Assembly (NCBI RefSeq): GCF_004795855.1
Contig: NZ_CP039252.1
Coordinates: 2,790,001 to 2,854,000, forward strand
Length of the DNA stretch: 64,000 nt
Direction: 5' to 3'
Source: Hydrogenophaga sp. PAMC20947
GTDB taxonomy: Bacteria; Pseudomonadota; Gammaproteobacteria; Burkholderiales; Burkholderiaceae_C
Numbering within the stretch: position 1 is the stretch's first letter; each line of letters begins with the position of its first letter. The notes under the pieces are model-generated. The model had not been told where the DNA came from, ran no database searches, and worked only from the letters and a program-made list of their open reading frames with translations. Positions 17,114 to 27,344 of the stretch are shown here, piece by piece. The translations under genes were made by a program, and so were the position numbers.

Positions 17114-17153
17114 TCTTTCCACAACGCCCCTGTTTTGGGGTTTGGAGAGTGAA

Positions 17154-17516
17154 ATGAAAGTCGATTCGTCCCCTGATTCCTATATTGGATCGGTTGCCGG
17201 TGGCCCGCAAAGAGCGGCCGCACAGCCTCCTGCTGGCGCCGAATCGGCGGCGGCAGCCAGCGCTGCGGCCAAGCCGCAGGCCAGTGCAGGCGTTACCGTC
17301 ACCCTGTCGTCGTCCACCACCCAGGCGCTGTCAGGTGCAGGTGGCAGCAACAACGATGTGTTCAACGCCGACAAGGTTGAGTCCATGAAGGCTGCCATTG
17401 CCAATGGCACCTTCGAGGTCAACGCCGAAGCCATCGCCGACAAGATGCTGTCCAACGCCGCTGAAATGCTCAACAGCAGCAGTGGCGCAGGTGGCAGCGG
17501 CGGCGCCTCAAGCTGA
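17154..17516 (+). CDS. flgM: Anti-sigma-28 factor FlgM
   Basis: FlgM binds FliA until the hook-basal body is complete and is then exported. The 120-residue protein has an Ala-rich disordered N-terminal half and a C-terminal sigma-binding half (NADKVESMKAAIANGTFEV, then AIADKML). The ATG at 17154 has a GGAGAGTG ribosome site; a TTG at 17142 is less likely. It is followed by flgN after 28 bases. Confidence 0.93.
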   Translation: MKVDSSPDSYIGSVAGGPQRAAAQPPAGAESAAAASAAAKPQASAGVTVTLSSSTTQALSGAGGSNNDVFNADKVESMKAAIANGTFEVNAEAIADKMLSNAAEMLNSSSGAGGSGGASS

Positions 17517-18514: not shown

Positions 18515-20992
18515 ATGAATCAAGAAATTGGCGCTCACGAACTGGACACACTGCTGGAGCGGCTCCCGCCACAGACCAAAGTGCTTTCACTCGATTGTTT
18601 TGACACCCTCTTGTGGCGCAAGGTGGTTCGACCGACCGATGTGTTTTTCAGTCTGCAGTCTCTGGAGCCATTCCGCTCCGCTGGAATCACCGCAGCCTTG
18701 CGGGCCAAAGGTGAATCTGGTCTGCGCCGCAAGCATCTCATGCTCACCGGAACCAGCGAGGTGACGCTGGAAGAAATTCACCGGGAGCTGCTGCCTCAAG
18801 CGAACCCGCAAGGTATTGCCGAAGCGGGAGAGGTCGAAATCGCCTGCGAAATCGCACACGCTTTCATCTTTGAACCGATCGCGCAACTGATCCGACGCGC
18901 GCATGCCAAAGGGTTGCGCGTGATCGTGGTCAGCGACACCTACTTCACTGGCCGGCAACTCGGTCACATGCTTGGCACACTGATGGGAGACGCGGTCGAC
19001 GCCATTGCGCACATCTATTGCTCGTGCGACTTTGGTGCCTCCAAGACCACGGGCATCTGGAAAGAGGTGTTGCGGCGGGAAAAGGTCCAGCCCCAACAGT
19101 TGTTTCACCTGGGGGACAACCGCCAAGCCGACTTGCAAGGACCGGCACCCCATGGCATCGCCTCGGCCTGGCTCAGGCAACATCCGGAGTCGGTCACCAG
19201 TCAGCTCGACCAGCGCGCCAGCGCCGCCGTTCAGCTCATGCCTGAACTTCGCTACACCCACGCGCTGCCCAGCTACTTCCATGGCCTGCTCGCCGCCACC
19301 GACACAGAAACGCTGAGTGCGCCGCAGCAAATCGGTTACCGCTCGCTGGGCCCCATCCTCTATAGCTTTGGCCGCTTCATCGACCAGCAACTCCAGACGC
19401 TCAAGGCGGCCGGCAAGAATATCAAGATCGCATTTTTGCTGCGTGATGGCTACCTGCCCGCCAAGGCGTGCGAGATCCTGATGGGTTCCGAGGGATTGCA
19501 TCAGGTCAACCTATCGCGATTCACGGCCATCGCCTCATCGCTGCAGACAAAGGCCGACGTCGTCCGGCTGCTCACGAGCAGCCTGTCGGATAGCTCCATG
19601 CCGGCCATCGCCAAACAACTGCTGCTCCCGCCGGCCAAGGCCAAGGCGCTGCTGGACCAGGCCGGCCGTTCGGACCAGCCGGCTCAGGCCTTCGCCCGTA
19701 TGGTTTTGCGCGACGACACCTTGAAACTGGTGTTCCAGCAATCGGCCGCCTTTCGCGAGCGCATGGTCACTCACGTCAGGCAGCGCACCGGGCTGGCAAC
19801 AGGCCACACCTTGGTCCTGGTTGACCTCGGCTACAGCGGCACGGCACAAACCTTACTGGCTCCCGTGTTCAAGCAGGCTATGGATGTCGATCTTTTCGGG
19901 GTCTACCTCATTGCCAGCCGCGTCAAGGGCCAACAGACAGACCGCAAAGGATTGATCGATGCCAGTTGGGCAGACGAGCGCTTGATCCTGACCTTGACGG
20001 CGTACATCGGTCTGTTCGAGATGATGTGCACCACCCCTGAAGCCACCACCGTGGACTACACGGCGCAAGGTGCGCCCATCCGAAGCCAGTCCAATACCGC
20101 AGGCCCTCAAGCAGCGGTTGTGGCCGACATCCAGGCCGCCTGCCTGCGTTTCGTAGCCGACATGGCCCGCACACCCACACGCCATCAGGGGCGCGAAGCC
20201 CCGCTGGAACTGGCACAGCAGGCCGCGGCCGACCTCGGCCGACTGCTCTACTTTCCCAGCGAACCAGAAATCGCCTGCCTCTCTTCATTTGAGTTCGACT
20301 TCAACCTGGGCACCGACCTGTTGCTGCCCACGGCCAACCTCGAAGCCGGTATCAGCGAGTACCGCAAGGAAGGCTTCGCCCTCATGACGCAGGAACTCAA
20401 TGAGATGCGCATCAGCTACCCCATGGAGATGCGGCAAATGGACATCTCGCTGGCCACCACGCTGATATCAGCTCAGCGGTTTGGCTATAACCTTGCGCCA
20501 TCAGAAGCCAGTTTCCGGACCACGACCATTCCAACCTTGATCGCCAATCTCAACCAACACGCACTCGGCCAGACTCAGGCTACCGCCACCTTCGACGGCT
20601 ACTACCGCGTGCACCTCCCCATGAGCGCAACATTCGACCAAAGCCTGCTGCTGGGGCGGACATTCGAGTGGTTGCAGCTCGATGCGATCGAGAAACTCCC
20701 CATTGAGAAAGACAGCGGTGGGCGGCGGCAGGACATGGTGCTGGGCGAGTCGGTGATGCTCGACGGCGTCGCCGCATGCGAAGGCAACCTGATCAAATTC
20801 GACGAAGCCGGGATGATGTTTTTCCCGGCCTGCAGTTCGGAGGAGCACGGGAAATTCATGATCCGCCTGGTATTTCGGCCGGTGTTGACCCGCGCTGAAT
20901 CGACCAGTGAGCCTTCCCTCTGCGTCCAAGAAACAGCGGCTCCAGCCCAGCCTCTGAACACCACCCCACGTCCCATTGAGGAGTCTGTATGA
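18515..20992 (+). CDS. HAD-superfamily protein of the COG5610 type, surface-polysaccharide associated
   Basis: An 825-residue protein. Residues about 20-230 are a HAD hydrolase-like domain: the nucleophile loop LDCFDTLL (Asp27), VVSDTY as motif II and HLGDNRQAD as motif IV. The second Asp of DxD is replaced by Phe, as in dehalogenase-like members. The region about 300-500 contains FLLRDGYLPAKA and LVDLGYSGTAQTLLAPVF, which recur in large COG5610 proteins of polysaccharide clusters. The function of the C-terminal third is unknown. It overlaps the next gene by four bases, so the two are translationally coupled. An AGGAAG site precedes the ATG. A role in making or trimming a surface glycan is inferred. 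Confidence 0.75.
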   Translation: MNQEIGAHELDTLLERLPPQTKVLSLDCFDTLLWRKVVRPTDVFFSLQSLEPFRSAGITAALRAKGESGLRRKHLMLTGTSEVTLEEIHRELLPQANPQGIAEAGEVEIACEIAHAFIFEPIAQLIRRAHAKGLRVIVVSDTYFTGRQLGHMLGTLMGDAVDAIAHIYCSCDFGASKTTGIWKEVLRREKVQPQQLFHLGDNRQADLQGPAPHGIASAWLRQHPESVTSQLDQRASAAVQLMPELRYTHALPSYFHGLLAATDTETLSAPQQIGYRSLGPILYSFGRFIDQQLQTLKAAGKNIKIAFLLRDGYLPAKACEILMGSEGLHQVNLSRFTAIASSLQTKADVVRLLTSSLSDSSMPAIAKQLLLPPAKAKALLDQAGRSDQPAQAFARMVLRDDTLKLVFQQSAAFRERMVTHVRQRTGLATGHTLVLVDLGYSGTAQTLLAPVFKQAMDVDLFGVYLIASRVKGQQTDRKGLIDASWADERLILTLTAYIGLFEMMCTTPEATTVDYTAQGAPIRSQSNTAGPQAAVVADIQAACLRFVADMARTPTRHQGREAPLELAQQAAADLGRLLYFPSEPEIACLSSFEFDFNLGTDLLLPTANLEAGISEYRKEGFALMTQELNEMRISYPMEMRQMDISLATTLISAQRFGYNLAPSEASFRTTTIPTLIANLNQHALGQTQATATFDGYYRVHLPMSATFDQSLLLGRTFEWLQLDAIEKLPIEKDSGGRRQDMVLGESVMLDGVAACEGNLIKFDEAGMMFFPACSSEEHGKFMIRLVFRPVLTRAESTSEPSLCVQETAAPAQPLNTTPRPIEESV

Positions 20993-22290
20993 AGGTCGTT
21001 GCATTCCTGCCAGCCAAGGGCGCCAGTTCACGGATCAACAACAAAAATACCAAGTTGCTTGATGGAAAGCCCCTGTTCCTGCACACCCTGGAAAAGCTGG
21101 TGGCATGCGACTTCATCGACGAGGTGTACCTCGACACCGAGTCCGAAGAGATCATGGCTATGGCCAGCGAGGTGCATTGCAAATTCATGCGTCGCGATCC
21201 GGCTCTCGCATCCAACCAAACCGACGGCAACCGCCTGTTCATGAACGAGGTGGCCCATGCCGAAGCGGACGTCTACGTACAAATTCTAGGAACCAGCCCA
21301 TTCATAGAGGTGGAGACCTTGCGCCGTGCGGTAGACATCGTCGCCGCGCCCGGCGCCACCCACGACTCAGCGGTGCTGGTCCGCAAGGACAAGCACTACC
21401 TCTGGGCCAACGGCCGCCCTGCCTACGACGTTGAGCGCATTCCCAACAGCGTGGACCTGCCCGATGTTGTTGCCGAAACCATGGGCATGTATGTCATCAC
21501 CCGCGATGCTGCACTCAAAACCCGGCGGCGCATCGGCGACCACCCGGCCATGATCGAGGCGTCACCGCTGGAAGCCTTTGATGTGAACTGGCCCGAAGAC
21601 TTCGAGATGGCCAATCTGATTGCTGCGGGCATGCGCGAGAAAGACCGCTACCTGCTCACCAACATCAAGAATCACCTCAACAGCTGCCTGCTGTCTGACC
21701 TGCTGGACGACATGGGGTACAGCGACCAGGTCGTCCGGGGACTGGCGCCCAACATCGCCAGCGCCAAGTTCCTCGGTCGGGCCAAGACGCTGAAGCTGCG
21801 CCTGCTCGAAGAAGGAGAAGATTTCAAGGGCATTTACAACGCACTGCATTCCTATAAGGAAATCGTGCCTAACGACATCATCGTGGTGGAAAACGAGGCA
21901 GCGGACTACGCATACTTCGGCGAGCTGAACGCCAACCTTGCGATCCGCTCAGGCGCATCGGCGGTGGTCGTGGGCGGCAAGACGCGCGATTCCGTGGAGG
22001 TACAACGCATCGGACTTCCAGTGTTCGCTGCGGGGTACTCCTGCCAGGACGTTCGCAAGCGCGCCACCGTGGCCCACATGAACAAGAAAATTCAGCTCTA
22101 TGGCGTGAGCATCAGCCCGGGCGACCTGGTGTTTGGCGACGCGGAGGGCGTGGTAGTCATTCCCAATCAGATCGAAAAACAGGTGCTTGAGGAGGTGTAC
22201 CGCCGCATCTCGAACGAAAAAAGGATCCTGGTCGACATTTCATTGGGCGTGGAAGTCGACGCCCTGGTCAGCGATTACGGCTTCTTCTGA
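20989..22290 (+). CDS. Fusion: CMP-sugar cytidylyltransferase + RraA/HMG-aldolase-like domain
   Basis: A 433-residue two-domain protein. Residues 1 to about 212 resemble NeuA/KdsB-type CMP-acid-sugar synthetases: PAKGASSRINNKN at 8-20 matches the nucleotide loop, and DVNWPEDFEMANL at 198-210 matches the metal-binding end. Residues about 222-425 resemble RraA-type class II pyruvate aldolases: LLSDLLDDMG at 234-243, GELNANLAIRSGASAVVVGG at 311-330, the conserved Arg-Asp pair at 333-334, and ISPGDLVFGDAEGVVVIP at 375-392. RraA-fold aldolases cleave or form 2-keto-3-deoxy acids, and CMP-synthetases activate such acids, so the fusion may couple the two steps. The substrate is unknown. The start overlaps the upstream stop (ATGA). 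Confidence 0.8.
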   Translation: MKVVAFLPAKGASSRINNKNTKLLDGKPLFLHTLEKLVACDFIDEVYLDTESEEIMAMASEVHCKFMRRDPALASNQTDGNRLFMNEVAHAEADVYVQILGTSPFIEVETLRRAVDIVAAPGATHDSAVLVRKDKHYLWANGRPAYDVERIPNSVDLPDVVAETMGMYVITRDAALKTRRRIGDHPAMIEASPLEAFDVNWPEDFEMANLIAAGMREKDRYLLTNIKNHLNSCLLSDLLDDMGYSDQVVRGLAPNIASAKFLGRAKTLKLRLLEEGEDFKGIYNALHSYKEIVPNDIIVVENEAADYAYFGELNANLAIRSGASAVVVGGKTRDSVEVQRIGLPVFAAGYSCQDVRKRATVAHMNKKIQLYGVSISPGDLVFGDAEGVVVIPNQIEKQVLEEVYRRISNEKRILVDISLGVEVDALVSDYGFF

Positions 22291-22315: not shown

Positions 22316-23668
22316 ATGAACAACCCGATCGAATCCAGCCACCCGCAGCCCACGGCGCAAGCGGCACTGGCCGTTCCGACCCGTGGCATCGTGCTGGCGT
22401 TGAATTTTGTGCCAGAAGCCGTGGAGCCCGGCATACATGCATTTTGGCAAAGCGTCTCAATTGTGCTGGAAGCGCAAGGGCATTCCCTCGTCATGGCCAG
22501 CACGACACCCATGGCCCCAGCGCTCAACAGCCTGCCGGTCCCCTACCTCCTGACCGATTTCACCACCCGTTATTCGGCCAGCATTGACCTGGCATCTGCA
22601 GTCCTTCCGTGTCCGTTGTTTGAGCGCAAGGTACAGGATTGGTACGGTTGCGACCAGACACTGGCCCGCACGAGCATCCAGATCGCCTCGGCATTCCTCA
22701 ACCAACTCATCACGGCCATGGGCCCCGTCGCGGTGATCGCCTGGCAATCGACCCATCCGTTGAGTCATCTGATGCTGGAAGTGGCTCGCAGCCACAGCCT
22801 CCCCACTTGGTCTGCGGAGCGCGGCTGGTTTCCGCAAACACTGATGTTCGATGTGGCGGACAACAACTACCTCTCCGAAGTGGGACGCAGCTTGGTGGCT
22901 CAAAGCCTGATCAACAGCTACTCGCCGAGTCGCGACGAACTGGACAACATGGCGCTGCGTCTCATGAACGACAAAAACGGTCGATACGCAGCCGCCCCAA
23001 CACAAAGCGGAGCTGAACTGCGTCAGCGCCTGGGTATCGCGCCAGAAGCCAAGGTGTTTGCGCTGTTTACGCATGGCGAGCCCTTCCTGTTTGCTGGCGA
23101 CGGCACCTTGGCAGAACTCCATGGCCTCAGCCGCAGCAACTACCTCAATATGTTTCAGGACATCAAGCGCTATTGCACGGAGGGTGGCCACTATCTGCTT
23201 GTTCAGGAGCACCCATTCAACCGTGACCAACCGCATGAGCTAAGTATCAATGATGAACCAGGCGTCATATCGTTGCGTGAAAACGTGCACACATTGCTCG
23301 ATGCAGCTGACCACTTCATTTTCACCCTAAGCACGGTTCAAGCCTACGCTGTAGCCTACAAAAAAAGCTTTGGACTGCTAGCCAAGAGTTTCTTGCATGT
23401 CAGCGACGGTCCTTATTACCACGGAGACTATCCAGACATCCGCGAATTTATGAATACCATCGTGAGTGGCGCTGACTGGCAGTCTCGTCAAGCAACCATC
23501 GAAAAGCGAATGGCATTCTATCTAAAGCATTTTCTTCTGGATATATCGCCTGACCAGATCAACTCCAGCGCACACCGCCTCGCAACCCTGATGAAAAACT
23601 TCGAGCGTCCTTTGCGTACAGATTTTGATGAGGCCATCAATGAATTTATTCTGACGTGGGCATCTTAA
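22316..23668 (+). CDS. KpsC/KpsS-like glycosyltransferase (probable CMP-ulosonic acid transferase)
   Basis: A 450-residue, apparently soluble protein with a GT-B-like pattern. The N-terminal half has AERGWFPQTLMFD, resembling capsule KpsC/KpsS enzymes. The C-terminal half has YLLVQEHPFNRD, then LLDAADHFIFTLSTVQAYAV, matching the region of those beta-Kdo transferases that binds the CMP-sugar. The ATG at 22316 follows the fusion gene by 25 bases. The context (an upstream CMP-synthetase domain) agrees with a CMP-activated donor. The acceptor is unknown. No other capsule export gene is in the window. Confidence in the family is moderate, lower for the exact donor. Confidence 0.65.
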   Translation: MNNPIESSHPQPTAQAALAVPTRGIVLALNFVPEAVEPGIHAFWQSVSIVLEAQGHSLVMASTTPMAPALNSLPVPYLLTDFTTRYSASIDLASAVLPCPLFERKVQDWYGCDQTLARTSIQIASAFLNQLITAMGPVAVIAWQSTHPLSHLMLEVARSHSLPTWSAERGWFPQTLMFDVADNNYLSEVGRSLVAQSLINSYSPSRDELDNMALRLMNDKNGRYAAAPTQSGAELRQRLGIAPEAKVFALFTHGEPFLFAGDGTLAELHGLSRSNYLNMFQDIKRYCTEGGHYLLVQEHPFNRDQPHELSINDEPGVISLRENVHTLLDAADHFIFTLSTVQAYAVAYKKSFGLLAKSFLHVSDGPYYHGDYPDIREFMNTIVSGADWQSRQATIEKRMAFYLKHFLLDISPDQINSSAHRLATLMKNFERPLRTDFDEAINEFILTWAS

Positions 23669-23770
23669 ATAAATATTTTCTCAATCCCGCCTTAGGCGCT
23701 GATTTTGGGTGACCGCAGACGCCTGCAGTCGCCAAACGAGCCCAAAACACCTGCACGAACTGAAACAGCA

Positions 23771-24466
23771 ATGGATGAACACACCAAGCAAGACTCCCCA
23801 GCGATAAGAGGTCTACTCAAGAGCAACGTTTGGGACCACGAAAATGCATTTTACTGGTTTAGTCATCCAACACGAATCAACAAAATGCTTGCTCACTACG
23901 AGCTATACAAAAGCATCGTCGATCTGCCGGGCGATATCTTTGAACTTGGCATATATAAAGCAGCCTCGCTAATTCGACTCGCCACATTCAGAAATCTGCT
24001 CGAAAATGACTTTTCAAGAAAAATTGTTGGGTTCGATGCCTTTGGGAAATTTCCTGTCGACAACATTACTCTTAAAATTGATCTGGATTTTATTGAAGCA
24101 TTTGAATCGACTGGTGGTGAAGGGCTTTCACTTCAAGAGGTAAAAAACATTTTCAAGGACAAGAATTTTCAGAACGTCTTACTCAATGAGGGCAATGTAT
24201 TTGAAACCTTGCCTGAGTTTCTAGAAAATTACCCGGCAACACGAATCGCTTTGTTGCATTTGGATATGGACGTAAAAGAGCCAACATTTTTTGCTCTTGA
24301 ACTTTTGTATGAACGGGTCGTGCCAGGTGGGCTGATTGTTTTGGACGACTACAACTCTGTAGCCGGAGCGACAGATGCAGTAGATGAGTTTCTAAAAAAA
24401 CATCATCTGAAAATTGAAAAAACCAGTCACTACTATGTGCCGTCGTTCATACGTAAACCGCTATAA
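23771..24466 (+). CDS. TylF/MycF-like SAM-dependent methyltransferase
   Basis: A 231-residue class I methyltransferase of the macrocin O-methyltransferase family. Visible elements are the FELGIYKAASLIRLA glycine-containing SAM strand, VGFDAFGKFP, LLHLDMDVKEPTF (metal-binding Asp region) and VVPGGLIVLDDY. Family members O-methylate sugars. The gene is clearly more AT-rich than its neighbours, as is the end of the preceding gene, suggesting acquisition from another source. The ATG at 23771 is preferred over upstream starts because residues before it look random. It probably modifies the glycan made by the cassette. Confidence 0.8.
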   Translation: MDEHTKQDSPAIRGLLKSNVWDHENAFYWFSHPTRINKMLAHYELYKSIVDLPGDIFELGIYKAASLIRLATFRNLLENDFSRKIVGFDAFGKFPVDNITLKIDLDFIEAFESTGGEGLSLQEVKNIFKDKNFQNVLLNEGNVFETLPEFLENYPATRIALLHLDMDVKEPTFFALELLYERVVPGGLIVLDDYNSVAGATDAVDEFLKKHHLKIEKTSHYYVPSFIRKPL

Positions 24467-24537
24467 ATAGCGCCAAAACTAGTTTTTGAAAATACCCCGG
24501 ACACAGCACGAATCCAAATGCTTCCAGTGGCCTCTCG

Positions 24538-25590
24538 AGATGGTCTGCGCAACATCCGCCAAGGCGTGAGTTGATGCGTTCGATTTCAGATGGCTGCGGT
24601 TGAAGGCTCGCGGGTGCCGTTTGAAGGCCGATTTAGCCCCCCGTTTTGCGACCCTCTTGCCGCAAGACGCACTCAGCCCGGATCTCCTGCAGCAATATGA
24701 GCCGCACCATCCACAGGTTTGAGAGTGCAAACAGCGTGTGCAGCTGCGCCGCGTTCTTGGCCAGCGCCCGATAGCGCGGCTTCACATGCCCGAACTGGAG
24801 CTTGATTGCTCGAAACGGGTATTCGACTTAGGCCCGGATGCGCGCCGTGGCCTGCTCCAGCTTCTCGATGATCGCGCCCATCGGCGTAGCGCTGTCCGTT
24901 ACCCGGCGCTTGACCGGGCGTCGTGACGTCGTTGACGTTGGCCGCCGTACCCACAGCCGTGTGCACCCGGCCCGAGTCCGCATCAAGCCCAATGTGCGCC
25001 TTCACCTCTGAGTGCCACTGATGGCCCTTCTTGGTCTGGAGCATCTCGGGGTTTCGCTCGCCGCTGTTGTTCTTAGTTGAAATCGGTGCGGCAATGAGCG
25101 TGGTATCGACCACCGTGCCGCTCTTCAAGAGCTACCCCGTGGCTGCCAGCATGGCGTTGATGGTGGCCTGGATCTGAAGGTCCAGGTTGTGGGTTTCGAG
25201 CAGATGGCGAAGCCGAAGGATGGTGCTCTCGTCGGGCAGGGTACTTTCACCGGCGTCCGGGACCACGAATTCACGAAGCAGCGCCATGCCGTACAACGCT
25301 TTTGCCATCGCAGGGTCCGAGAGGTTGAACCACGGCTACATGAAGTGGAAGCGTAGCATGGTCTTGACGGCAAGCGGTGGGCGCCACCCTTGGCACCGGG
25401 CGCAAGTGCGTGCGAGGTGATCCGCGAGACCCGCTCAACCGCGGGGCACAGCCAGATTCATTTCGTCGACGAGCTCCCGCTTGCGCGTTCTCTGGGTCTT
25501 GCCCTCGAATCCGCCCTCTCCCAGGCTCGATTTCTCCATGCCGTTACTGGCTCACATCGGGCGCGGGCGCCGACGTTTTGCAGACCTTCC
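24538..25590 (-). mobile_element. Degraded IS5-family insertion sequence
   Basis: Terminal inverted repeats are visible: 24538-24553 (AGATGGTCTGCGCAAC) and the complement of 25575-25590 (GGAAGGTCTGCAAAAC) agree at 12 of 16 positions. Between them lies a broken transposase on the minus strand. The size, about 1.05 kb, suits a somewhat shortened IS5 group element. No clear target duplication is visible, consistent with an old insertion. It sits between the glycan cassette and fliA. Confidence 0.75.
24633..25539 (-). pseudogene. IS5-family transposase, inactivated
   Basis: Reading from 25539, the product begins MEKSSLGEGGFEGKTQRTRK, then shifts frame near 25440. It continues MLRFHFM-stop-PWFNLSDPAM, TLPDESTILRLRHLLETHNL and GTVVDTTLIAAPISTKN, then QTKKGHQWHSEVKAHIGLD. 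It then loses a segment and shifts again to IIEKLEQATARIRA-stop-VEYPFR and ends HTLFALSNLWMVR and RQEGRKTGG. These are IS5-group DDE transposase segments. At least three in-frame stops, two frameshifts and a deletion show it is dead. Confidence 0.88.
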
Positions 25591-25827: not shown

Positions 25828-26550
25828 CTAATGTTCGCGCAACTTGGAACGCAAACGGGCGATGGACTGGCTGTGCAGCTGGCAGATCCGGGATTCGGTC
25901 ACGCCCAGAACGGCGGCGATTTCCTTGAGGTTCATGTCATGTTCGTAGTACATGCTCATGATTTTCTGCTCGCGGTCGGGCAAGACCTTGATGGCAGCCA
26001 CCAGGGCCGTGCGCATGCGCTGATCCTGCAGGCGCACGGAGGGCTCGGCCTCGGTGTCCCCCATGTGGCGGTCGAGAAAACTGTCCTCGTCATCGCCCTG
26101 TCCACTGATGTCTTCCAGGTACACCAGCTGGGTACCCCGGACCTTGGCCAGGAGGTGCTGGTATTCGGCCAAGCCGAGTCCCAGCTCCTGGGCAATCTCG
26201 GACTCCATGGGCACGCGGTGCAATTTTTGCTGCAGGCGGTGTACTGCCTGCTCGATATCTTTCTGGCTCTTGCGCGACCCACGCGACATCCAGTCGCCTT
26301 CCCGCAGCTCATCGATCATCGCGCCGCGGATGCGCTGGCTGGCGAAGGTCTCAAACTGCACACCCTGCGAGGGCTCGAAGCGCGAGATGGCTTCGGTCAA
26401 GCCAATCATGCCCACCTGGATCAGATCGTCCACTTCCACACTCGGGGGTAGCTTGGCAATCATGTGGTGCGCGAGACGGCGCACCAGGGGACTGTATTTT
26501 CGCAGTTGGGCGTCCCTGTTGAGGGTGCCTTTGGAGGTATACATCGTCAT
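25828..26550 (-). CDS. fliA: Flagellar sigma factor FliA (sigma-28)
   Basis: FliA directs RNA polymerase to late flagellar promoters. The 240-residue protein has region 2 (LPPSVEVDDLIQVGMIGLTE), region 3 (about RKSQKDIEQAVHRLQ) and region 4 (LPDREQKIMSMYYEHDMNLK, then LGVTESRICQLHSQ). The start at 26550 overlaps the flhG-like stop (TGATG arrangement); an ATG two codons on (26544) has better ribosome-site spacing and is an alternative. The longer open frame upstream lies inside flhG and is rejected. It is the last gene of the flhB-flhA-flhF-flhG-fliA run. Confidence 0.96.
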   Translation of the reverse strand: MTMYTSKGTLNRDAQLRKYSPLVRRLAHHMIAKLPPSVEVDDLIQVGMIGLTEAISRFEPSQGVQFETFASQRIRGAMIDELREGDWMSRGSRKSQKDIEQAVHRLQQKLHRVPMESEIAQELGLGLAEYQHLLAKVRGTQLVYLEDISGQGDDEDSFLDRHMGDTEAEPSVRLQDQRMRTALVAAIKVLPDREQKIMSMYYEHDMNLKEIAAVLGVTESRICQLHSQSIARLRSKLREH

Positions 26551-27344
26551 CAACTCCAGGTGGTTTGAGCGGTCCACGGCCGCATGCTCTGCGCCTCGGC
26601 CCATGCGTCGCGACGCTGGGTGGGCTGTGTGGGAACACCCAGTGCGGCTTCTTGCACACGCAAGCCCCAGGTGTGCAAAGGCCAGGTTGAGGCCTCCAGA
26701 TTCAGGTGGCGCCGGGCACAATCGATCACGGTCTTGACCACCTGCTGCAGCGGCAACTCAGCCAAGACATCGCTTTGCTCCAACGGTGCGAGCACGGGCG
26801 AAAACCCCGCTGCGTACAACGACTTGAGAGAAGCGTAAGCATCGATGCTGGCCTGTTTCTGGGGCAGCACCGGCACCATGACCTGGACCGGCATGCCCGC
26901 CAGGATCGACACCAGAGTCGATGCTGGGGCGTACAACAGCACCACCACCTTGGCGGCGAATGGCGCCAGCAGGCGCGACAGCGCCACCTGACCACCGGCC
27001 GCACGCGCGGTCTGCTGCAGTGCCTGCAATCCCAGCGCACCCGGCATGACGAGCCACTCCGTCCCGTCGGTGGGCCGGTCGAGCCCCGCCAGCGAAGCAT
27101 CGTTCAGCACCTGCAACAAGCCCACGTGGCTGCCTGCGGCCTGGCGCCATTCCCCCGACTCCTGGGCGCTGCCGTCCACAATGACTGGATGACACCCCAT
27201 CGAGCTCAGGTGCGAGGCCAGTGCACACAGCATTTCGTAAGCGCGTGCCGGCTGTGCCGGGCTGGCCACCGGCATCAGACGTGCCTCACTTTGCCGAGAT
27301 TCGCCGCGCAGCCCCGCTGCCTGGTTCCAGCCGACCTCAAACAC
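26550..27344 (-). CDS. Degenerate FlhG/FleN-like protein lacking the Walker A loop
   Basis: This gene is where flhG sits in many genomes, between flhF and fliA, and its GTG start overlaps the flhF stop by eight bases. The 264-residue product opens FEVGWNQAAGLRG, close to the N-terminal DQA-x-x-LR motif of FlhG that stimulates the FlhF GTPase. The ATPase P-loop (KGGVGKT in FlhG) is absent; the aligned region reads PVASPAQPARAYEML. A residual VIVDGS resembles the strand before switch I. It may be a pseudo-ATPase partner of FlhF. The family assignment rests on position, this motif and the alpha/beta pattern. Confidence 0.65.
   Translation of the reverse strand: MFEVGWNQAAGLRGESRQSEARLMPVASPAQPARAYEMLCALASHLSSMGCHPVIVDGSAQESGEWRQAAGSHVGLLQVLNDASLAGLDRPTDGTEWLVMPGALGLQALQQTARAAGGQVALSRLLAPFAAKVVVLLYAPASTLVSILAGMPVQVMVPVLPQKQASIDAYASLKSLYAAGFSPVLAPLEQSDVLAELPLQQVVKTVIDCARRHLNLEASTWPLHTWGLRVQEAALGVPTQPTQRRDAWAEAQSMRPWTAQTTWS

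Follow-up and report, generated by a model that had tools for sequence, protein, structure and literature searches.

A widespread fusion of a CMP-acidic-sugar synthetase with an RraA-like domain and its possible place in a branch of Kdo metabolism

What might a single protein do that joins a domain for coupling acidic sugars to cytidine monophosphate (CMP) with a domain of the RraA-like aldolase fold? The question is raised by a gene at 20989..22290 (+ strand) of a 64,000-nucleotide stretch of the Hydrogenophaga sp. PAMC20947 genome (GCF_004795855.1, contig NZ_CP039252.1, positions 2,790,001 to 2,854,000; hereafter the window), which encodes, from an ATG start, a CMP-acidic-sugar synthetase/RraA-like fusion of 433 amino acids (aa), as indicated by the open reading frame (ORF) call, Pfam, homologues, and an AlphaFold2 model. 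We propose, with a probability of roughly one half, that the fusion is bifunctional and serves a surface-glycan pathway branching off from 3-deoxy-D-manno-octulosonic acid (Kdo), where the RraA half would alter Kdo and the other half would add CMP.

Domains, active sites, and spread of the fusion

The N half of the protein (about residues 1–215; 20989..21633, +) is a NeuA-type cytidylyltransferase, with a CTP_transf_3 match at residues 5–120 (E 5.1e-20) and a NeuA-type domain and fold seen in Pfam, sequence, and structure matches. The C half (residues 222–418; 21652..22242, +) has the RraA/HMG-CHA (4-hydroxy-4-methyl-2-oxoglutarate/4-carboxy-4-hydroxy-2-oxoadipate) aldolase fold by Pfam and structure prediction; the RraA-like family PF03737 covers residues 233–390 with profile positions 2–152 of 152 (E 4.9e-27). 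Both matches lie well above the curated cut-offs, and, together with full-length homologues, they bear out a preliminary description, made from the sequence alone, of a NeuA/KdsB-like part joined to a complete RraA-like part. The AlphaFold2 model (mean pLDDT 93.7, pTM 0.88) matches CMP-sugar synthetases in its N half and RraA and HMG/CHA aldolase structures in its C half, which shares 20–24% identity with the matched aldolase/RraA structures. Neither established function of this fold was assigned to the C half by equivalog models, as it scored 56.4 bits with the LigK HMG/CHA aldolase (TIGR02798, cut-off 304.5) and 43 bits with the RNase E regulator RraA (PRK09372, cut-off 136).

The Arg-Asp pair of a class II pyruvate aldolase is nonetheless kept. 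HMG/CHA-type class II aldolases carry a D-X20-R-D motif, in which the Asp lies 21 positions before the Arg. In the fusion, the Arg333-Asp334 pair (21985..21990, +), located where the preliminary description had put it, aligns with the catalytic Arg123 and the metal ligand Asp124 of the Pseudomonas putida HMG/CHA aldolase (3NOJ), and Glu312 (21922..21924, +) aligns with its Asp102. In that aldolase, Arg123 stabilises the pyruvate enolate, while Asp124 and Glu199 bind the metal (PMC5065237, in excerpt). A candidate equivalent of Glu199 is Glu410 (22216..22218, +), as suggested by alignment with 3k4i and 5ir2; against 3noj itself, the alignment is shifted by two residues there. Arg333, Asp334, and Glu410 did not vary in any of the 120 homologues among the matches listed, nor in the 76 loci that cover these sites; position 312, across 77 loci, is Glu in 48, Asp in 27, and Asn in 2. 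A mere scaffold role would not need such conservation. None of the outcomes named in the preliminary description as speaking against an RraA half was found, given that the RraA profile matches, the Arg-Asp pair and Glu410 are unvaried, and the predicted C-terminal fold is that of RraA/HMG-CHA aldolases.

The N half is similarly conserved, with Arg15 and Lys19 identical in all 75 covering loci and Asp198 in 77 of 77. Among 60 fusion members, mean pairwise identity was 57% in the N half and 51% in the C half, with a correlation of 0.83 between the halves. Judged by their residues, both halves look like working enzymes, and the RraA half probably acts on the same acid as its partner. The existence of stand-alone relatives also suggests that the RraA half can act as an independent enzyme: four such proteins (P0148, P0149, P0152, and P0153) are 50–55% identical to the fusion C half, including the 219-aa P0148 from Lactococcus (55%), while many other stand-alone matches sit on short contigs and may be cut fusions. 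Relatives of P0148 were absent from the plasmid collection at an E limit of 1e-20, and its neighbourhood had no match in the order of G016, represented by only two genomes.

The protein search, in which 8000 candidates were scored, returned 1296 homologues. The 120 listed are all full-length with both Pfam domains, come from Vibrio, Photobacterium, Pseudoalteromonas, Caballeronia, Rubrivivax, and others, and bear public labels such as 'RraA family protein', 'cytidyltransferase', and 'cytidylyltransferase domain-containing protein'. A genome scan found 77 fusion loci in named records across many phyla, including Bacillota (eight), Bacteroidota, Desulfobacterota, Bdellovibrionota, Planctomycetota, and one Methanomassiliicoccales draft. 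The full-length two-domain homologues and these loci mean that the fusion is neither a chance event nor an assembly join; on sequence grounds, it is an established two-domain family and no recent accident. No fusion was found in the plasmid collection at an E limit of 1e-30. Within the bacterial family of the window, the fusion occurred in 2 of 150 sampled genomes (its own and one at 47% identity) and was absent from the one same-genus genome among those listed; given this rarity, it forms part of an accessory island there.

Kdo genes beside the fusion and in fusion genomes

The preliminary description had further suggested that the RraA half builds the acid from pyruvate and an aldehyde, so that no NeuB- or KdsA-type synthase would be needed. 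The neighbourhoods of the 77 loci (up to 10 kb on each side) tell otherwise with respect to KdsA. Neighbours were identified by gene clustering and domain searches; since the crude ORF caller produced wrong frames in GC-rich loci, the counts rest on tblastn with queries from these same loci. KdsD was found in 19 loci, KdsA in 17, either in 24, both in 12, and KdsC in 7, with six related Photobacterium loci (L016, L017, L019, L022, L024, L038) inflating the counts of KdsD and of GT2 glycosyltransferases. The KdsD partner is an arabinose-5-phosphate isomerase that passed the KpsF/GutQ subfamily model, the tested operonic KdsA copies pass the Kdo-8-phosphate synthase equivalog cut-off, and the KdsC partner is a YrbI-family Kdo-8-phosphate phosphatase, which passed the subfamily model and failed the KdsC equivalog. 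The genes stand in various orders: KdsD-KdsA-fusion-KdsC in Mucilaginibacter (L018, L020), fusion-KdsD-KdsA-KdsC in Paenibacillus amylolyticus (L023), and KdsD-fusion-KdsA in Agathobacter (L034) and a Lachnospiraceae member (L036). None of the nine neighbour families sought was found in 27 loci from metagenome-assembled genomes (MAGs) with alphaproteobacterial, Proteobacteria, 'Marinimicrobia', or unclassified labels (L039-L043, L045-L048, L050-L057, L059-L061, L064, L066, L067, L074-L076, L078).

A whole-genome test covered 47 fusion genomes, including that of the window (30 of the 77 loci were left out, many being near relatives of included ones). KdsA was matched in 46 of these, 45 above the cut-off (12/12 and 33/35), the window genome among them; the exceptions were G762, whose copy is cut by a contig end (272.6 bits, below the cut-off), and the MAG G774, which had no match. 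Since Gram-negative bacteria carry KdsA anyway for lipopolysaccharide (LPS), the Gram-positive genomes are the more telling. All eight with the fusion had a KdsA match (G762 as the cut copy, and G779 with one in-frame stop in the stretch), compared with 6 of 590 sampled genomes with KdsA above the cut-off (3/299 Bacilli, the class of Paenibacillus, and 3/291 Clostridia, the class of Agathobacter), each count including a centre genome chosen for its fusion. With the two centre genomes removed from the background, Fisher tests gave p 1.3e-15 for 8/8 versus 4/588 and p 6.5e-14 for 7/7, values that serve as a guide, as the samples were drawn differently and kinship was ignored. The full-length fusion itself occurred in one genome of each sample (1/299 and 1/291), both of them centre genomes. 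The other four sampled Gram-positive genomes with KdsA lack a full fusion and encode a stand-alone cytidylyltransferase adjacent to KdsA or within its cluster, indicating that the fusion occupies the KdsB slot.

KdsB itself was above the cut-off in 38 of the 47 genomes. Nine KdsA-positive fusion genomes lacked such a KdsB (Cohnella, Paenibacillus, Agathobacter, an Acetatifactor MAG, Solidesulfovibrio, MAGs L029 and L070, an Anaerotruncus MAG, and the archaeal draft), eight of which had no full-length KdsB-like match in these searches, with gene absences in MAGs being weak evidence; in Solidesulfovibrio, a KdsB below the threshold is fused with a KdsC-like domain. In Agathobacter and Paenibacillus, which have KdsA and no KdsB above the cut-off, the fusion is the best CTP_transf_3 protein found and thus the best candidate there for Kdo activation.

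A KdsB gene shares a cluster with the fusion in 2 of 77 loci (tblastn with four stand-alone KdsB-like queries). The first is a capsule cluster of a Desulfobacteraceae member (L015), which encodes a KdsB above the cut-off (217.9 bits), an ABC transporter, Poly_export, KdsD, KdsA, the fusion, two Capsule_synth proteins (KpsC/KpsS-type), and a 1216-aa protein with a haloacid dehalogenase/phosphoribosyltransferase (HAD/PRT) part (Bcs3 E 3.7e-18) and a long N-terminal extension. In the second, from Solidesulfovibrio (L009), KdsD, the fusion, a 137-aa ORF, and KdsA are succeeded on one strand by a KdsB domain fused to a KdsC-like one, with the KdsB domain falling below the cut-off (132.6 versus 155.2 bits). 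The latter protein, at L009:12714-14024, unites its KdsB and KdsC-like HAD domains in 436 aa.

Proposed Kdo branch and its alternatives

Given the KdsD/KdsA/KdsC operons, and KdsA in 46/47 fusion genomes versus 6/590 Bacilli and Clostridia, we take Kdo, or a KdsA-made derivative of it, as the most likely sugar, and rate it as quite likely that Kdo or something close to it is activated by the N half. The presence of KdsA makes the RraA half unlikely as sole maker of the acid; a more likely place for it is downstream of KdsA and KdsC, acting on Kdo as an aldolase, an epimerase, or otherwise. Acids of the 2-keto-3-deoxy-4-hydroxy type, to which Kdo belongs, can be enolised and cleaved in an HMG/CHA-type active site, and class II aldolase-family epimerases elsewhere invert C4 by retro-aldol cleavage and re-addition.

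In the pathway that we propose, KdsD, KdsA, and KdsC would supply free Kdo, the RraA half, with its metal-dependent site of the pyruvate-enolate type, would bind the 2-keto-3-deoxy end of open-chain Kdo and change it, and the NeuA-type half would join the product to CMP from cytidine triphosphate (CTP). The favoured change, C3–C4 retro-aldol cleavage followed by re-addition on the other face, would invert C4, though we put this specific epimerisation forward tentatively, with the chances against it. In the window, the activated sugar may be used by a 450-aa beta-Kdo-transferase-like enzyme encoded downstream, along with ribofuranose from an 825-aa PRT/HAD enzyme encoded upstream, and a TylF enzyme may add a methyl group; as far as predicted folds go, the ribofuranosyltransferase and beta-Kdo-transferase-like neighbours agree with a Kdo-type sugar. 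KdsB in the same cluster as the fusion (L015 and, below the cut-off, L009) means that the fusion seems to add something to KdsB, and the simplest reading is of one Kdo pool with two exits, KdsB leading to CMP-Kdo and the fusion to something else. We hold the chances about even that the fusion product is not plain CMP-Kdo, and likewise balanced that the RraA half alters Kdo before activation.

Several observations weigh against such a Kdo branch. The N half reached 33.4 bits with the KdsB equivalog TIGR00466 (cut-off 155.2) and scored higher with PseF than with KdsB, though PseF TIGR03584 was still failed (57.8 versus 205.7 bits); it also matched NeuA-type structures better than KdsB, the synthetase for CMP-Kdn (Kdn, ketodeoxynonulosonic acid) being nominally first and tied with a NeuA, so a ulosonic acid other than Kdo is a possible substrate. 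Neither KdsA nor KdsD was found within the DNA examined in 53 of 77 loci, the KdsA of the window genome lies far from the fusion (C1:351016 versus C1:2810989), and KdsA co-occurrence says little in Gram-negative genomes because of LPS. In Cohnella, another CTP_transf_3-like ORF beats the fusion with the KdsB model (37.5 versus 27.1 bits). By Foldseek E-value, the 450-aa neighbour is closest to other GT-B enzymes, and no known polysaccharide was tied to a fusion strain. Finally, E. coli capsule loci duplicate CMP-Kdo synthetase (KpsU beside KdsB) without a new sugar, and by analogy the coexistence of KdsB and the fusion could be redundancy.

The last point leads to the alternative that survives best, which we rank as possible but clearly below a Kdo branch: the fusion may make plain CMP-Kdo, with the RraA half either acting as a catalytic safeguard or valve, by which surplus or incorrect Kdo is split into pyruvate and D-arabinose, or serving as an oligomer scaffold. 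KdsA and KdsD neighbours and a Kdo-transferase-like partner need nothing more than this, and the nine KdsA-positive genomes without KdsB above the cut-off (eight without a full-length KdsB-like match) fit it. The unvaried active-site Arg, Asp, and Glu speak against the scaffold version; against plain CMP-Kdo in general stand the four Gram-positive KdsA genomes that carry a stand-alone cytidylyltransferase, and the two clusters where KdsB, in one case below the cut-off, accompanies the fusion.

We consider unlikely the scheme of the preliminary description, in which pyruvate and an aldehyde are combined by the RraA half into a ulosonic acid that the N half then activates, without a KdsA- or NeuB-type synthase. 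The pairing of a synthetase with a class II pyruvate-aldolase fold and its conserved Arg-Asp stood up, CTP-driven activation could pull an unfavourable aldol addition, and 60 of the 77 loci have no KdsA within the DNA examined. The claim of no KdsA-type synthase, however, fails on KdsA close to the fusion in 17/77 loci from several phyla, on operonic copies that pass the equivalog, and on KdsA in 46/47 fusion genomes, including eight of eight Gram-positives (one copy contig-cut), where it is otherwise rare. Least probable is that the substrate has nine carbons (a Kdn-, Neu-, or Pse-like acid) and is destined for surface glycans or flagellin, the KdsA neighbours serving other genes: the nominal best structure match (a CMP-Kdn synthetase, tied with a NeuA), the location of the window island within a flagellar cluster, and an MptE-like gene near the L033 fusion with a weak PseD match (24.1 of 670 bits) would suit it, but operonic KdsA passes the Kdo-8-phosphate synthase cut-off, no gene of the NeuB type, whose synthases make sialic-type acids, was among 20 annotated neighbour-cluster representatives (no direct NeuB search was made), and for L021 the match of the MptE-like neighbour, also weak, was to the Kdo transferase WaaZ (22.8 of 200 bits).

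Compared with known systems, the fusion differs from the CMP-Kdo synthetases KdsB and KpsU in lying far below the KdsB cut-off, in its NeuA-type sequence, and in its second domain. It resembles NeuA-type synthetases, nominally most closely PpNeuA (CMP-Kdn synthetase, 9T4Z), in the best sequence and structure matches of its N half, whereas the matched chains lack an RraA domain. From HMG/CHA aldolase and RraA-like class II pyruvate aldolases (3NOJ, 3K4I, 5X15), it is set apart by Glu in place of Asp102, low identity, the fusion itself, and a biosynthetic setting. No description of an RraA/cytidylyltransferase fusion was found in the literature searched, in keeping with the preliminary description, nor was one of a biosynthetic 4-epi-Kdo or Kdo aldolase step, with most subscription papers outside the scope of the search. 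One paper containing both 'rraA' and 'Kdo' was dropped, as rraA/menA in the portion available is only a cluster border (PMC11641403). Known folds and a known pathway would be joined in a bifunctional enzyme for which we found no description, with a probably undescribed step.

The Hydrogenophaga island, other settings, and implications

In the window, the fusion belongs to an island placed between flgM (17145-17513) and a sigma factor gene (25831-26721) of a flagellar cluster. The first gene (18515..20992, +), whose stop overlaps the fusion start, encodes the 825-aa HAD phosphatase and phosphoribosyltransferase, a predicted ribofuranosyltransferase dependent on phosphoribosyl pyrophosphate (PRPP); a profile of seven sequences of its family matched Bcs3 (E 1.3e-39) and the ribofuranosyl transferase 7SHG (E 5.2e-35). 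We noted the location of a predicted polysaccharide ribofuranosyltransferase inside a flagellar gene cluster. Elsewhere, a 1161-aa Luteimonas ORF (L006) that appeared to fuse a ribosyltransferase to a glycosyltransferase was rejected as a frame artefact of separate genes, since tblastn matches fell in two frames and phmmer gave nothing.

Downstream of the fusion lies the gene (22316..23668, +) for the 450-aa GT-B glycosyltransferase, predicted from its fold to be of the beta-Kdo type. While it had no Pfam match, and its profile matched no solved structure (best E 0.53), VIA-align placed the predicted fold nearest to KpsC and WbbB, which are beta-Kdo transferases. Retaining beta-Kdo transferases have a QXXXD nucleophile motif (PMC12887879, in the part available). 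The 450-aa protein has an invariant Asp179, a candidate for the nucleophile position, with Thr instead of Gln four residues upstream and thus no QXXXD there, and the protein is possibly a new glycosyltransferase family as judged from its model. Next comes a TylF-type O-methyltransferase gene (23771..24466, +; PF05711 E 3.3e-20), a type also found in 6/77 fusion loci. The island edge is marked by a transposase remnant (24676..25373, −; DDE_Tnp_1 E 2e-06 for 24676-25128, with no Pfam match for 25128-25373). Beside this remnant, GC content over the methyltransferase gene drops to 43% (23500-24499) from about 60% on both sides of the island, and this stretch is possibly a recent acquisition.

A close parallel to this arrangement is KrkA of E. 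coli K13, which, according to the available part of its description, joins a GT140 Kdo transferase to a ribofuranosyltransferase for a Ribf-Kdo polymer and uses plain Kdo (PMC12887879). Like KrkA, the window pairs a HAD/PRT ribofuranosyltransferase with a predicted Kdo-type glycosyltransferase fold, both PRT and HAD parts being present in the 825-aa protein; the 1216-aa HAD/PRT protein of L015 similarly has an N-terminal extension, a candidate Kdo transferase. Unlike KrkA, the window has separate genes, no sequence match to a solved Kdo transferase, and the additional fusion and methyltransferase.

Other settings of the fusion were also noted. In a more distant clade (about 45% identity; L042, L043, and related MAG loci), a second nucleotidyltransferase and a protein with weak TagF similarity come after the fusion, the group being flanked by housekeeping genes (M1 peptidase, dihydrouridine synthase), with neither KdsA nor KdsD nearby. 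In Stutzerimonas stutzeri (L010 and L079, as read in L010), the fusion stands close to the ligase and zipA genes and adjoins proteins of the CTP_transf_like, DegT aminotransferase, TagF-like, and ATP-grasp kinds, in what is a different surface-polymer setting. In the Methanomassiliicoccales archaeon RumEn M2 (L081), KdsA, KdsD, KdsC-like, HAD/PRT, and fusion genes lie together on a contig labelled archaeal, the fusion match spanning residues 1–432 where the ORF caller gave 183 aa. Kdo genes in an archaeon would be surprising, and contamination is a possible source of this candidate archaeal locus.

A Kdo branch would have consequences beyond this island. A large enzyme family now labelled 'RraA family protein' or 'cytidylyltransferase domain-containing protein' would become a family of Kdo-branch enzymes, Kdo-type sugars would be expected in Gram-positive bacteria not usually credited with them, KdsA outside LPS would be linked to other surface glycans, and the RraA fold would gain a biosynthetic role. 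We also raise, as a speculative prospect, a widespread and hitherto undescribed pathway from Kdo to a new octulosonic acid (such as its C4 epimer), made by the RraA half and activated with CMP by the same protein. The sugar would then be built into capsules, cell-wall glycans, or flagellin in proteobacteria, Bacteroidota, and Bacillota, and possibly in an archaeon, sometimes next to ribofuranose. Such a pathway would point to strains whose glycans merit solving. The role of RraA-like proteins with no known partner, an old puzzle, would become a direct enzyme question, and, since relatives of the fusion have Kdo-making genes as neighbours in several groups that are not related, an altered Kdo that nobody has yet looked for may be present on the surface of some microbes.

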